44,572 nucleotides of DNA. It comes from Saccharofermentans sp. (GTDB taxonomy: Bacteria > Bacillota_A > Clostridia > Saccharofermentanales > Saccharofermentanaceae). The notes beneath the pieces are model-generated. The model was not told where the DNA came from and did not search any database. It worked only from the letters and a program-made list of their open reading frames with translations. Position 1 is the stretch's first letter. Each line of letters opens with the position of its first letter. The stretch is taken from the NCBI GenBank assembly GCA_024695565.1, contig JAILHX010000076.1:1-44572 (forward strand), written 5' to 3'. Below are positions 14,693-29,637 of the stretch, in pieces. Both the position numbers and the translations under genes were made by a program.

Positions 14693-15358
14693 TCAACCCC
14701 ATTTATACTTAATAACTGACTTATAGTTACCGTCTAACTGTGAAGATATTGATGCGACTTCATCAGCTGACCAATGGTATGTGTTTCTAAATGTATCCTC
14801 TGTCATTGCTACGCCATCGACAACGATCTCACGTGAATCCTCAACACCATTCTGCTTAGCGCGCTCTGTGAAACGAGGTACCCAGAAACTGCCTTCGTAA
14901 GAATATACATAATCTGTACTGCTGTAATTATCCTTAACGAAGATCTTATAATATACGCACTTTGTAGTAGTATCGAACTTATAGAACATCCTGATGTCCC
15001 ACTTGCTGTCACCGGAATTTGTGCTGATGAAGTTAGGTTCAAAGATAGCTGTTGAGGAACCGTTCTTATCAGTTACTGTGAGCTTCGGAATTCCACCTAT
15101 GGGAGATACAGTCCACGTAAACGTATCGCCTGCTGCACCGGTAGTTCCCTGAGTTTCCTTCAGGAATGAATTCTCAAAACCATTAGCATAAAGCAACGCA
15201 TAGTCTGTTGAGTCATCAATATTATATGTTGTACTGAATGAATCAGATATTGATACACATATTCCTGCAATAACACCGCCGATGATAACAATGATCGCAA
15301 GCGATAAGATCATCTCGACTAAGGTAAAACCTTTTTTGTTTTTATTTTGTCTCTTCAT
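14693..15358 (-). CDS. Minor type IV prepilin-like protein (third of the minor set)
   Basis: The N-terminus MKRQNKNKKG^FTLVEMILSLAIIVIIGGVIAG is a class III signal: a short basic leader, the G^F cleavage site, Glu at +5 and a hydrophobic helix that packs into the pilus core. About 221 residues precede the stop, with a head domain rich in beta-type segments (DTFTWTVSPIGGIPKLTVTD, SKWDIRMFYKF). It resembles minor pilins of the PilW/PilV class by position and length only. The frame runs up to a GTG at 15382; I chose ATG 15358 because it gives the shortest normal prepilin leader. Distal gene of the minor prepilin operon, followed by a strong terminator. It needs a prepilin peptidase encoded elsewhere. 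Confidence 0.87.
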   Translation of the reverse strand: MKRQNKNKKGFTLVEMILSLAIIVIIGGVIAGICVSISDSFSTTYNIDDSTDYALLYANGFENSFLKETQGTTGAAGDTFTWTVSPIGGIPKLTVTDKNGSSTAIFEPNFISTNSGDSKWDIRMFYKFDTTTKCVYYKIFVKDNYSSTDYVYSYEGSFWVPRFTERAKQNGVEDSREIVVDGVAMTEDTFRNTYHWSADEVASISSQLDGNYKSVIKYKWG

Positions 15359-15402
15359 AAACTGCTTTCCCCCGAATATCACATTAGAAAACTGTTTTTA
15401 CC

Positions 15403-16020
15403 TTAGGATCCTATCGGTGTATTGACTACCAGCGGAGCACTTTCAAGATTCTGGCTGCCGCCAGCTTCATCAATTACCCAATAATATTTTCCGGTATCAG
15501 AATTATACATAACGACAACTTTACCTAAAGTTGAGTTGTTGCCTTCCTTCTGCCAATACTCAGGATAGTAAACGAATGTCTTTCTGTTATCTGCTAAATC
15601 ATCTGAGGAAGGAGCAAATGTGTCCTGACCATAAGGCAATGATGTAGGAACTGTTGAATCCAGATCAGTTTCTGCTTCGATATGAACAAATACATCTTCA
15701 AACGAAGCAGTAATGCTTCCCTCTTCGAATGTTAAAACCGTAGCATTACTTCTGTTTCCGCTGCAGTAACCCTTACCCTGCTCTTCTCTGCCACCAGTTC
15801 CGGTGTTCGGTGTGTCACTCCAGGTAGCAAGTGTCGACATGCATGCCGTATAGTTATTGGAACCTGACTTACTGTATACAGATGTCTGATATGAATAACC
15901 CATAGTAGCAATAAAACCGTTAATGAGCATCGTAGATACTACTACGAGAATGAACGTTGCCAACAGAGTCTCAACAAGTGTGAATCCCTTGCGGTTAATC
16001 TGCTTAATTAATCTCTTCAT
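15403..16020 (-). CDS. Minor type IV prepilin-like protein (PilV/GspI-like)
   Basis: A 205-residue prepilin. The leader MKRLIKQINRKG ends at the cleavage site G^FTLVETLLATFILVVVSTMLING, with Glu at +5. The FTLVETLLA start resembles PilV/GspI-type minor pilins. The head has two cysteines (one each side of the TGGREEQGKG loop) that could form a disulfide. The ATG is preceded by GAGGTGAT. It is the middle gene of the minor prepilin operon, 38 bases after the first and 44 bases before the third gene. Confidence 0.88.
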   Translation of the reverse strand: MKRLIKQINRKGFTLVETLLATFILVVVSTMLINGFIATMGYSYQTSVYSKSGSNNYTACMSTLATWSDTPNTGTGGREEQGKGYCSGNRSNATVLTFEEGSITASFEDVFVHIEAETDLDSTVPTSLPYGQDTFAPSSDDLADNRKTFVYYPEYWQKEGNNSTLGKVVVMYNSDTGKYYWVIDEAGGSQNLESAPLVVNTPIGS

Positions 16021-16058: not shown

Positions 16059-16286
16059 TCATCCGAAACTGTATTTGCGCAAGCTGGCTTCACCCTCATC
16101 AACCTGTGCTCTCAATTCACTGGAAGATAATCTTACTGCATCACCTGATCTATTGGTGGTATTGATAATATCGCTAATACCAGCAAATAGAGCACTAGCA
16201 AGAATCAAGATAATTGCAACAACTAAGACCATTTCTGTAAGAGTGAAACCACCCTTAATAACTTTCTTCTTACTTATCCTGTGCAT
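16059..16286 (-). CDS. Short type IV prepilin-like protein
   Basis: A 75-residue prepilin: leader MHRISKKKVIKGG, cleavage before FTLTEMVLVVAIILILASALFAG, Glu at +5. The mature product would have about 62 residues, so beyond the N-terminal helix only a 35-residue polar tail remains (charged, with SSSELRAQVDEGEASLRK). This is too small for a normal beta-sheet head. GGAGGG precedes the ATG at good spacing. It is the first gene of the minor prepilin operon, driven by the promoter at 16333-16360. Confidence 0.87.
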   Translation of the reverse strand: MHRISKKKVIKGGFTLTEMVLVVAIILILASALFAGISDIINTTNRSGDAVRLSSSELRAQVDEGEASLRKYSFG

Positions 16287-16332: not shown

Positions 16333-16360
16333 ATTATACTTTCTTATTTGTAAATTTCAA
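16333..16360 (-). promoter_or_regulatory. Promoter of the minor prepilin operon
   Basis: Minus-strand TTGAAA (16355-16360) and a perfect TATAAT (16333-16338) with a 16-base spacer. The -35 lies in TGTTGAAATTT, which is shared with the PilX-like gene promoter. Confidence 0.82.
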
Positions 16361-16396
16361 CACTAAAATTCATAATTTGTTAAAATTTGGTCATTA

Positions 16397-16408
16397 TTTG
16401 TTAACAAA
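16397..16408. promoter_or_regulatory. TTTGTTAACAAA palindrome, candidate activator site of the minor prepilin promoter
   Basis: This 12-bp perfect palindrome is centred about 76 bases upstream of the expected transcription start. The core TTGTTAACAAA is repeated at the same distance upstream of the PilX-like gene (29603-29613), separated in both cases by exactly 34 bases from TGTTGAAATTT. Confidence 0.5.
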
Positions 16409-16412
16409 AGAA

Positions 16413-16439
16413 GTAGCGGGGAACTAAGTTCCCCGCTAC
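16413..16439 (-). terminator. Strong hairpin after the short major-type pilin gene
   Basis: GTAGCGGGGAAC / GTTCCCCGCTAC is a perfect 12-bp stem with a 3-base loop. On the minus strand it is followed by TTCTTTTG, a moderate U-tract. It lies about 52 bases past the pilin stop and separates it from the minor prepilin promoter. Confidence 0.78.
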
Positions 16440-16491
16440 CGTCAAATTCTAATGAATCGTTATTAAACTTGAATCAAGTCAGTATTCTTAA

Positions 16492-16733: not shown

Positions 16734-16762
16734 ATTATACAAGCTGTTGTGACGAAATGCAA
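16734..16762 (-). promoter_or_regulatory. Strong promoter of the short pilin gene
   Basis: Minus-strand TTGCAT (16757-16762), 17-base spacer, TATAAT (16734-16739). An AGGAGG ribosome binding site follows before the ATG at 16695. Confidence 0.85.
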
Positions 16763-16808
16763 TACTTTTTTCAAAATTTTTCAAATTTTCGCCACAATTG
16801 TGTTTTTG

Positions 16809-23971: not shown

Positions 23972-24061
23972 CGAACCCTCCCGAGTTTTTAGTTACAAAA
24001 TAATACGCTCAGCAATGCACGCACAACAGACGGGCATACTTGCCCAAGCATAGATGTTAGA

Positions 24062-24090
24062 ACTATACAACAGAAACAGGCGTTTTACAA
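24062..24090 (-). promoter_or_regulatory. Promoter of the pilB-pilO transcript
   Basis: Minus-strand TTGTAA (24085-24090), 17-base spacer, TATAGT (24062-24067). It gives a leader of about 84 bases before the pilB ATG, in which GGGCAAGTATGCCC can fold as a small hairpin. Confidence 0.6.
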
Positions 24091-27325: not shown

Positions 27326-29458
27326 TCAATAATAGTAAATAATGTTCTGAACCTTGTACTGAGTTACAGCGGGTCTCTTCTTAGGTAATGACGAACTGCT
27401 TGACGGCTTAGGGCAGTAAGGCATATAGAAATTACCTGTTGTGTTGTATGTAGGCAGCGCGGAGACCTCGAGTCTTCCATAGAACCAGTTACCGCCTGCA
27501 AGGTCATTTCTGAATGTGAAGTAAGCACTGCCATAAAGTCCGATATAAGCTTCAAGAATACAGTCATCACCACACTGGAAGTATGTTCCGCTGCCTTCAC
27601 CGAGGATGTACATAGCCGGCTTCTTGACATTATCATAATAACTAGAATAATGCGTCGTGGAATTTGTCTCATCAGCCTGCGGTGTACCCTGGACATAAGC
27701 TCCGATAGCTGCTGCTGAAGAGCAGTTACGGCTGATAGAAATGAATCCCTGAGAACAGAGCGAACTATCATGGCAACGATACTGTGCTTCAGGTCCTACG
27801 ATCTTAGCGCCGGGTTCCAGAACAAATACCGCGCTGCTCGGATCCGAATTATCAACATTGTACATAGCAAATACCAAGCAGTTCATTGTTGTTGTCGAAT
27901 TTTCTGCAAAATAGAAGCGGTAACTGCCTCCACTAGCACCGTTAATGCAGATAACCCAAGGTTTCTTGTTATTACAGTTGCTCATTGTTGTGCCGCCAGT
28001 GATGTAATAGACACCGGGGTCAAGAGCAATGATTCTGTCTTGAGTGCCGTCCTTAGCATCCCATCTTAAAAGACCATTACCTGTTGTTGTAGATGTACCA
28101 GGGTTAATATCAATCTTCTTGGATTCAGGGATATTACCGTTACTATCCTTTGCCCAATCAGGATATGTGGTAGTCAGAGGATTCTTCGCTACTTCTGTTC
28201 CGCTCGGAATTACCGAATTAGCTGCATACCATACTCCAGTCTTGCTGTATGTAGCATATTCAAGCTTATAATTGTCACCGGTAGCAGTTAACCACTGTCC
28301 ATCAGGATTCATCTGGCAGATTACACTGGACAGGCTTGAAGGGAAAGCTGTCAAGCTGGACTGATATGTCTTATAGTTATCTAAAGTCGTAACCTTATCG
28401 TCAGGAAGAGTACCCGCATTTGTAACTGAGTATGAATTTCCGTTATAGTAACCTGTTGTATTGATAACTGTACCACCGTTACTTACAAAGTAGCAGTTTC
28501 TGCCGGTTCCTGTAACGAGGTCCTTGATCTTATGGTTCTGGTCGCCTGAATCGTTCTGTACAGTTCTGCCGGCAAAGACAAAGGTTGTACTCGAAATGGT
28601 GCTCCAGATATTGTCATTACCGGTGTGCTTGAAGCCGGCATCATTCGTAGTGCCGAGGAAATAGAAGTCACCTGACATTACACGTACGGATGCATCACTG
28701 TTCATGTATGCGCCTTCAAGGAAGACCATATTTCCGTAATATTCGTTACCACCGCCGAAATATGCATTAGAACCTGCAGCGAATACCATGTCAGAGTAAT
28801 ATTTTGCATCTGACGTATTATCTGAAGCACCGCCTCTGAAAAGGATAGTGTTATCAGTAGGATGTACGGCAGGATTGTTTACCATGCCGATACCACCGGT
28901 GAAACGGAGCGTAGCAGCTCCGGAATTACCGAGAACCTCAACCTGGTTTGTGAAACGGTCGCTGTTAGTAGGATCGCCCTGAGGTTCAACCTTGAATACG
29001 ATTCTGACATTCTCTGTTTCTTCACCGATCGTTGTTGAGAAATCAGCCCAAACGATCTTCTTATCCGTTGTATCTGGATAATAGATGTTAAGGAATGTGC
29101 AGTTCTTGTTATCAGGGTCATTCGCCTCGGAAGCCATTCCGGGGACACCGTCAACTACCATTCTGATCCTGTCGCCGGTATTTGAAGGTTTAGCAGCGAG
29201 AAGAGATTCGATCTGGGCATCTGTGATCTCCTGTGTCTGGAGAGCTTCCAGGAAGACTTCGGATGCAGACGTAACAGTCAGACGGGCCTGACTCAACATT
29301 GTTTCCTCATACAGACGGCCTCTCGTAGCCTGTGTAAGCATCATAGCTGCTGTGATGAAGATCATAGCAAGAGCCAAGATGAGAACTACGAGTACGAGAA
29401 TAGCACCCTGCTTACTTTCCTTCTTCTTAACTACTCTTTTAATCATAAGAAGCACCAT
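27326..29458 (-). CDS. Large PilX-like type IV pilus-associated protein
   Basis: A 710-residue protein (706 if it starts at ATG 29446). The N-terminus (KQGAILVLVVLILALAMIFITAAMMLTQATRGRLYEE, read in parts) has the PilX-type layout: basic start, a Gly directly before a long hydrophobic helix, then an amphipathic helix, but no FTLxE signature. A long Gly/Asn/Thr/Ser-rich body (about 190-680) with recurrent short beta patterns (FAAGSNAYFGGG, MVFLEGAYMNSD) suggests a beta-solenoid or adhesin-like head. It ends in a Lys/Tyr tail. It lies outside the pilus block but its promoter matches that of the minor prepilins, so a tip or adhesin role is inferred. Start choice between 29458 and 29446 is uncertain. 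Confidence 0.75.
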   Translation of the reverse strand: MVLLMIKRVVKKKESKQGAILVLVVLILALAMIFITAAMMLTQATRGRLYEETMLSQARLTVTSASEVFLEALQTQEITDAQIESLLAAKPSNTGDRIRMVVDGVPGMASEANDPDNKNCTFLNIYYPDTTDKKIVWADFSTTIGEETENVRIVFKVEPQGDPTNSDRFTNQVEVLGNSGAATLRFTGGIGMVNNPAVHPTDNTILFRGGASDNTSDAKYYSDMVFAAGSNAYFGGGNEYYGNMVFLEGAYMNSDASVRVMSGDFYFLGTTNDAGFKHTGNDNIWSTISSTTFVFAGRTVQNDSGDQNHKIKDLVTGTGRNCYFVSNGGTVINTTGYYNGNSYSVTNAGTLPDDKVTTLDNYKTYQSSLTAFPSSLSSVICQMNPDGQWLTATGDNYKLEYATYSKTGVWYAANSVIPSGTEVAKNPLTTTYPDWAKDSNGNIPESKKIDINPGTSTTTGNGLLRWDAKDGTQDRIIALDPGVYYITGGTTMSNCNNKKPWVICINGASGGSYRFYFAENSTTTMNCLVFAMYNVDNSDPSSAVFVLEPGAKIVGPEAQYRCHDSSLCSQGFISISRNCSSAAAIGAYVQGTPQADETNSTTHYSSYYDNVKKPAMYILGEGSGTYFQCGDDCILEAYIGLYGSAYFTFRNDLAGGNWFYGRLEVSALPTYNTTGNFYMPYCPKPSSSSSLPKKRPAVTQYKVQNIIYYY

Positions 29459-29537
29459 CCTTCAATATGTTTAAAACTACTTAAATTACTGCGTTTGACG
29501 GGAATACCCCGCACAATTCACCTTATTAGTTAAGCCT

Positions 29538-29566
29538 ATTTTAAGGCATCAGTGTTCAAATTTCAA
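29538..29566 (-). promoter_or_regulatory. Promoter of the PilX-like gene
   Basis: Minus-strand TTGAAA (29561-29566), 17-base spacer, TAAAAT (29538-29543). The -35 is part of TGTTGAAATTT, as in the minor prepilin promoter. The leader of about 75-85 bases includes a CGGG-GTATT-CCCG hairpin. Confidence 0.75.
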
Positions 29567-29602
29567 CAGAAAATTCTAATTTTGCTAACTTTTTTTACAT
29601 AG

Positions 29603-29613
29603 TTTGTTAACAA
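29603..29613. promoter_or_regulatory. TTGTTAACAA palindrome upstream of the PilX-like promoter
   Basis: This palindrome is centred 76-77 bases before the expected transcription start and lies 34 bases from TGTTGAAATTT, the same arrangement as at 16397-16408. Confidence 0.5.
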
Positions 29614-29637
29614 TTCGTTTACAAATTATGCTTCTTT

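Follow-up and report, generated by a model that had tools for sequence, protein, structure and literature searches.

Two promoters in the window (the whole 44,572-nucleotide stretch of Saccharofermentans sp. DNA analysed here), one in front of a minor-pilin operon and the other in front of a PilX-like gene about 13 kb away, share a conserved, nearly exclusive upstream architecture. This sharing makes a common regulator likely, and on balance we lean towards a small pilus-tip regulon, in which a regulator of the OmpR/PhoB family, bound to an array of short repeated units at both promoters, would aid sigma-A RNA polymerase so that the tip genes are made together. Little seems to be known of when gut clostridia build type IV pili; among the papers found in the library searched on Saccharofermentans together with type IV pili, none addresses this question by its title, and the matches listed in broader searches include no promoter study of clostridial minor pilins.

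All window coordinates given below refer to the minus strand. The minor-pilin operon begins with a gene whose 75-residue translation carries the TIGR02532 prepilin motif (16059..16286), followed by second (15403..16020) and third (14693..15382) minor prepilin genes, each with PF07963. The PilX-like gene (27326..29446; 706 residues from the ATG at 29446) encodes a large pilin consisting of a pilin helix with an inserted beta-solenoid, for which the best fold match is ComZ; the PilX-like proteins of relatives are just 27–51% identical to it. No paper connecting tapirins with type IV pili and cellulose turned up in the library searched. In the ComZ/PilA2 system of Thermus thermophilus, as passages of the source describe it, a large pilin with an inserted beta-solenoid partners a minor pilin, and a location at the pilus tip is proposed (PMC6561018). 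The PilX-like protein resembles the tip pilin ComZ and may likewise sit at the tip and, as would be expected of a ComZ-like pilin, bind DNA.

The original prediction described a two-part stretch upstream of both the minor prepilins and the PilX-like gene, and TTGTTAACAAA-N34-TGTTGAAATTT does occur letter-exact twice, at 16407-16352 and 29613-29558. A looser form, TTGTTAACA-N30..45-TGTTGAAAT, has two matches in the window and none in 100 dinucleotide shuffles; the shared architecture is not due to chance. In the minor-pilin promoter (16333..16410), the left element TTGTTAACAAA (16397..16407) contains a TTAAC unit at -44, counted from the first T of the -35 box, and the best conserved part of the array, TTAACAAATTATGAAT (16368..16383), contains the units TTAAC (-23) and TGAAT (-12). 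The -35 box TTGAAA (16355..16360) is separated by 16 bp from the -10 box TATAAT (16333..16338), with 11 of 12 matches to consensus. The PilX-like promoter (29538..29621), which follows directly on the end of an exonuclease-like gene (Pfam RNase_T) at its stop codon, has the same left element at 29603..29613, again with a TTAAC unit at -44, and its boxes, TTGAAA (29561..29566) and TAAAAT (29538..29543), are 17 bp apart and match in 10 of 12 positions. Both pairs are thus of good sigma-A type, and the second element of the prediction includes the -35 box in each case.

The two genes were also predicted to belong to different transcripts. A terminator-like hairpin of 13 pairs (16412..16440) sets the minor-pilin promoter off from the short-pilin gene, which fits separate transcripts, and a GC-rich hairpin occupies the same place in many of the relatives displayed. 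Downstream of the PilX-like promoter, the leader (29450..29537) contains a small hairpin of five pairs immediately after the start site; among 24 sequences, two of these pairs change on both sides at least once. Rfam searches of the whole window found nothing above threshold except a tRNA elsewhere, and the PilX-like promoter with its leader gave a single chance-level match, so that a riboswitch or other known RNA was set aside.

The conserved feature extends beyond the two 11-mers, comprising T(T/G)AAC-like units at intervals of about 11 bp that run up to the TTGAAA box in both promoters, the last unit being the -35 hexamer itself. PilX-like promoters have units at -55, -44, -33, -22, and -11, with the TTGAA of the -35 box as the sixth, at 0; the array is clearest in two more distant genomes (G078 and G154). 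It includes near-invariant letters other than A and T, namely the G and C of TTAGC and the G of CGAAT/GGAAT. In the minor-pilin promoter of the window there are five units, at -44, -33, -23, -12, and 0, in steps of 10–12 bp. No conserved unit was seen near the start site in either kind of promoter.

Stepping the unit T[TG][AG]A[ACT] back from the -35 box in 32 PilX-like promoters gave a match of 0.84 at 11 bp versus no more than 0.54 at any other step between 7 and 15, although, as the unit was chosen after inspection of partly the same sequences, this result is a description more than a test. Seven of nine PilX-like promoters from genomes unused in model building (L218 and L224, which resemble training sequences, were left out) gave 0.86 at 11 bp versus at most 0.54. 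The minor-pilin arrays have no single period (0.61 at 11 bp, 0.62 at 8 bp). Whole-sequence self-similarity was discarded as proof of an 11-bp period, lag 11 reaching the nominal 5% level in two of nine promoters and in none when lags from 6 to 16 are allowed.

To place these promoters among relatives, we used PilC as the guide protein. The PilC of the window is 83–92% identical to the best 120 proteins listed, few of which carry a name (Clostridiales or Saccharofermentans), and a scan of named genomes identified 43 loci, 41 of which have a PilC 71–93% identical (two of these are partial). Most relatives are metagenome bins, and many record titles refer to rumen or gut samples. Gene order around PilC is identical in relatives as far as the contigs extend. 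Upstream DNA was analysed for 34 PilX-like and 33 minor-pilin genes, counting those of the window; the PilX-like promoters of L012 and L035 are included in these totals, and the minor-pilin upstream region of L031, which was wrongly extracted, is scored as a miss in the motif counts below (the model R1 described below did find a site before the L031 minor pilins).

Both promoters are kept in close relatives, as the proposed comparison with sister species required, and their recognizability fades with distance. Nearly all PilX-like promoters (32/34) fit both 11-mers with at most two mismatches in total, and the 34-bp gap is present in all 34. Among minor-pilin promoters, 15/33 fit with at most two mismatches and 23/33 with at most four of 22 letters, and only two of these 23 recognizable promoters have a 34-bp gap. 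The identical spacing is therefore exact in the window and among PilX-like promoters but not among minor-pilin promoters, most of which have other gap lengths, so that a two-element motif with a fixed 34-bp gap is ruled out and the spacing fails as an argument for a common activator. Alignment places one extra base in the minor-pilin promoter of the window and of L010; the equal gap is partly an accident of the window strain. The left element of the minor-pilin promoter, GTTAACAAA, is less conserved and is absent in L025, L029, L030, and L032. The inner block, TTAACAAAWT, by contrast occurs in every one of the 26 aligned minor-pilin promoters.

Conservation is strongest upstream of the PilX-like gene, where positions -50 to -1 have a mean pairwise identity of 0.936 (27 close loci), compared to 0.679 for the spacer between the -35 and -10 boxes and to 0.33 predicted by composition. 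The corresponding values for the minor-pilin promoter are 0.696 (27 loci), 0.595, and 0.35. The short-pilin promoter reaches 0.679 (30 loci) with 0.518 in the spacer, and so is about as conserved as the minor-pilin one; across the three promoter sets, the identity expected from composition is 0.33–0.37. From the short-pilin and pilB sets we dropped L041 and L042, which belong to unrelated phyla, and L022, a partial second locus; the short pilin of L017, a wrong match with no anchor, was also left out.

Genome-wide specificity was assessed with R1, a sequence-only model built from an alignment (A2) of 26 minor-pilin and 22 PilX-like sequences after duplicate removal. The alignment omits L034, L035, L036, L040, and L043; the minor-pilin promoter of L040, which had a wrong anchor, was likewise left out of the period analysis and the box counts. 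In the window, R1 scores 53.1 bits at the PilX-like promoter (29557-29617, E 1.2e-15) and 50.3 bits at the minor-pilin promoter (16351-16410, E 8.6e-15), and the next matches, at 8.7 and 6.7 bits, are the PilX-like site on the opposite strand. Each of eight genomes contains exactly two R1 matches at E<=1e-9, eight before minor-pilin and eight before PilX-like genes; the next-best matches are one of the same sites on the other strand (E 0.001) and then one at E 0.017.

Another 32 genomes were scanned at E<=1e-5; two matches were found in 22, three in four, one in two, and none in four, and all eight of the matches examined precede minor-pilin or PilX-like genes. The extra matches in G014 lie before further PilX-like genes, those in G009 and G024 lie at contig ends (in G009 one site occurs on two overlapping contigs), and that in G011 may come from a second pilus locus present in this bin (L022). 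Second PilC genes in some bins (L022, G031:C39) could represent true second systems or mixed strains. In these 40 genomes R1 scored the best 150 of about 400–1300 first-look candidates per genome, so weak sites may be missed, and as most of the genomes supplied training sequences, the informative part is the absence of other matches. Within the candidates scored, the full form does not occur before many unrelated genes, the outcome that the prediction had called for.

An independent scan covered 148 genomes of the order, with the best 36 candidates per genome and stricter filters that may lose weak sites; 37 genomes have an R1 match at E<=0.001. In the 13 of these that were unused in R1, 16 of 18 matches lie before the minor-pilin operon (seven) or the PilX-like gene (nine). 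The remaining two are in G161, where no pilus gene was seen nearby, and in G151. The G151 match (L234, G151:C4:85889-85849, minus strand) lies before a reading frame of 793 residues whose hydrophobic start resembles a signal peptide; it is the one non-pilus match with promoter-like surroundings in the unseen genomes and may mark a further surface target. R1 matches track PilC closeness, occurring in 31/31 genomes with a PilC score of at least 750 bits, 3/15 at 690–750, 1/25 at 560–690 (G161, not a pilus promoter), and 0/10 below 560, which indicates that the recognizable element belongs to one clade; G122 and G151 have R1 matches without a PilC match at the threshold used.

Shorter cores of the array are less restricted. 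Across 26 genomes, the bare GTKAACAAWNTGTKAAC core was matched 18 times, at 16 places, compared to none for the backwards control. Four of the places are PilX-like promoters; the rest include sites ahead of an orphan short pilin, in the gap between an obg-like and a membrane-protein gene, and before secreted-looking proteins. Weak R1 matches in G004:C36, G028:C3, and G030:C6 precede other prepilin-like genes. The pair GTKAAC-N5-GTKAAC has 29 matches in 16 genomes versus 14 for the reversed control, and when GTTAAC-N2..30-GTTAAC was searched in six genomes, N5 was the commonest spacing (about 12 of 50 places). We rejected pair spacing as evidence because several of these places are copies of a dispersed sequence, GTTAACCAAACGTTAAC, with no pilus link seen, and because the reversed control is higher in G004. 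The occurrence of shorter cores before other genes suggests that the factor may not be dedicated; if it reads such a core, more targets than the two full arrays are possible.

Several of these sites are described here in their own right. GTTAACCAAACGTTAAC is one identical sequence dispersed in several genomes with varied neighbours (L154, L164, L196, L198, L201, L205, L209, L210). Orphan short-pilin genes off the main locus (L106 in G028:C3, L107 in G004:C36, L108 in G002:C12, and L109 in G007:C11) have their own tandem TGAAC-like repeats, in steps of about 11 bp up to a -10-like box, with a GTTAAC/GTAAAC pair further upstream. A site of the GTTAACAAT-N2-GTGAAC type is conserved between the obg-like and conserved membrane-protein genes (L132, L141, L142, L143, L195, L200, L203, L208), with a helix-turn-helix gene downstream in L141 and L200. 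GTTAAC-N5-GTTAAC also occurs where an operator might be placed, just downstream of a -10-like box or near the starts of genes whose products look secreted (L133, L134, L136, L144, L145, L147, L138, L206, L213). In L089 (G032:C5) and L094 (G016:C101), a helix-turn-helix gene is separated by TTAACA-rich sites from a divergent gene whose product is rich in Ala, Glu, and Arg.

The pilB and short-pilin promoters had been said to lack the element. This holds for pilB and, in terms of letters, for the short pilin, but the short-pilin promoter does have T(T/G)AA-like units, and their register is similar. Located at 16734..16794, it contains TGGC at -32, TTGAA at -22 and again at -12, a -35 box TTGCAT, and a -10 box TATAAT; it scores only 3.7 bits with R1 and contains TTGAAAAATTTTGAAAAAAGTG in many relatives. 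Its units might just as well represent a simple UP element made of A-tracts. The pilB promoter (23972-24062, minus strand, with upstream DNA to about 24140) is conserved but different, containing GACA-N6-TGTC, CTTGT, and then TGTATAGT; a hairpin of five pairs is kept in the pilB leader, with only one-sided changes among 29 sequences and no Rfam match.

Direct repeats at 11-bp steps with GTTAA or TTAA cores are read by SaeR, CtrA, and WalR, all members of the OmpR family, and the Bacillus PhoP consensus is TTAACA-N5-TTAACA. Boxes described in passages of the respective sources are GTTAAN6GTTAA for SaeR of Staphylococcus aureus (PMC5083920), TTAA-N7-TTAA for CtrA at Caulobacter pilA, where one site lies over the -35 position and others upstream (PMC11264516), and TGTWAH-N5-TGTWAH for WalR, quoted for Bacillus subtilis and applied to Clostridioides difficile (PMC9210968). 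The WalR consensus occurs in 26/32 PilX-like promoters, including that of the window (0.3 in shuffles), and in 4/31 minor-pilin promoters, not including that of the window. With at most one mismatch, the SaeR-type box is found in 28/32 (forward) or 31/32 (reverse) PilX-like and 8/31 (forward) or 20/31 (reverse) minor-pilin promoters, compared to 1.3 and 0.8 in shuffles, and in 0/36 short-pilin and 0 or 2 of 38 pilB promoters; in its exact form it occurs in 0/32 PilX-like and 10/31 minor-pilin promoters (reverse strand). The exact CtrA motif is present in 16/31 minor-pilin promoters (2.2 expected), not in that of the window, and in 0/32 PilX-like promoters. None of the exact known boxes occurs in the short-pilin (36) or pilB (38) promoters, and the exact PhoP box is absent from all 32 PilX-like and 31 minor-pilin promoters.

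Since no one known box fits both promoters, we name a family as likely without naming a regulator, and based on these resemblances the regulator probably belongs to the OmpR family. A site of the LytTR type, the family of AlgR and AgrA-like regulators, consists of two 9-bp repeats 12–13 bp apart. The 22-bp step GTTAAC/GTTAGC/GTTGAA in the PilX-like promoter suggested such 21/22-bp repeats, but no exact one was found in any of the four promoter sets. A regulator encoded in the locus was also sought; Pfam scans of the larger proteins of the window found no DNA-binding regulator, only YebC, formerly called a transcriptional regulator. Three genomes contain 17, 17, and 22 genes with an OmpR-family DNA-binding domain (56 loci). 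Self-regulation did not lead to the regulator, as none of the 27 readable loci among 30 taken, at least two of which (L181, L182) have a doubtful reading frame, has an exact T(T/G)AAC-N6-T(T/G)AAC pair upstream; the best pairs match in 9/10 letters, in three loci.

According to the model that we lean towards, an OmpR/PhoB-family response regulator would occupy neighbouring T(T/G)AAC-like direct repeats in the form of head-to-tail dimers and would help sigma-A RNA polymerase at the -35 box, the direction of control being suggested by the geometry of the array. The minor pilins and the ComZ-like tip pilin would then be produced together, whereas pilB, the motor gene, and the short pilin would be expressed apart from them. 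The same geometry bears on a rather unlikely variant, in which the array would be bound by a repressor, or by a dual switch, and the tip genes would stay silent in all but one condition. In its favour, the -35 box lies within the array as its last unit, the -35/-10 boxes are already near consensus (11/12 and 10/12), so that the promoters may need no help, and upstream CtrA sites at pilA do repress, according to passages of that study (PMC11264516). However, an array that extends upstream from the -35 box and includes it, with no conserved unit seen near the start site, corresponds to the usual geometry of activators.

It is also conceivable that no specific regulator is involved. UP elements are A/T tracts without specific G or C letters, and the AT-rich block might act as one by contacting the alpha C-terminal domain of RNA polymerase, together with DNA curvature. 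The block is A/T-rich, helically phased, and directly upstream of near-consensus boxes, and the short-pilin promoter, with the sequence noted above, looks like such an element; we nevertheless regard this explanation as unlikely, given that the near-invariant G and C letters of the PilX-like promoter have no known UP-element role and that the full array is confined to two operons. Less probable still is that a single ancestral promoter was duplicated within the locus and that both copies have persisted with no common regulator. The presence of both promoters in the same locus and the similar strong block near the -35 box agree with duplication, but functionless copies would not hold an upstream identity of 0.936 while the adjoining spacer falls to 0.679, and both kinds of promoter persist in unseen genomes.

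A stricter form of the tip-regulon model can be offered only tentatively: in this clade of gut clostridia the regulon may be dedicated, with a regulator that reads the six-unit, 11-bp array and has essentially two full-strength targets, the minor-pilin operon and the gene of the ComZ/tapirin-like tip pilin. If this is correct, tip composition would be switched apart from filament and motor, and adhesion targets could be changed without changing the pili. The two-operon array marks genes that may work as a unit. It links a 706-residue protein that lacks annotation, a likely subunit of the tip, with the minor pilins, and could serve as bait for finding the regulator.

Among known systems, WalR acts on cell-envelope genes, compared to the pilus genes here. 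The CtrA sites at Caulobacter pilA (PMC11264516) are similar in that a pilin-type promoter has several TTAA half-sites spaced by 11 bp, one of them over the -35 box; they differ in belonging to an alphaproteobacterium and in serving the main-pilin gene rather than tip operons. The SaeR box (PMC5083920) is likewise an 11-bp direct repeat of GTTAA in a Firmicute, from which the arrays described here are mostly one mismatch away. In Pseudomonas aeruginosa, the fimU-pilVWXY1E minor-pilin operon depends on FimS-AlgR, which is proposed to respond to the encoded proteins (PMC5979040). There, a two-component system governs minor-pilin and tip genes as a unit, and the logic could be alike; AlgR, however, controls one operon rather than two, and its operators are unlike those described here, where no LytTR-type pair was found. 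The ComZ system of Thermus thermophilus (PMC6561018) likewise combines a solenoid pilin with a minor-pilin partner, but comZ adjoins pilA2, whereas the PilX-like gene lies 13 kb from the minor pilins and is tied to them by promoter sequence.
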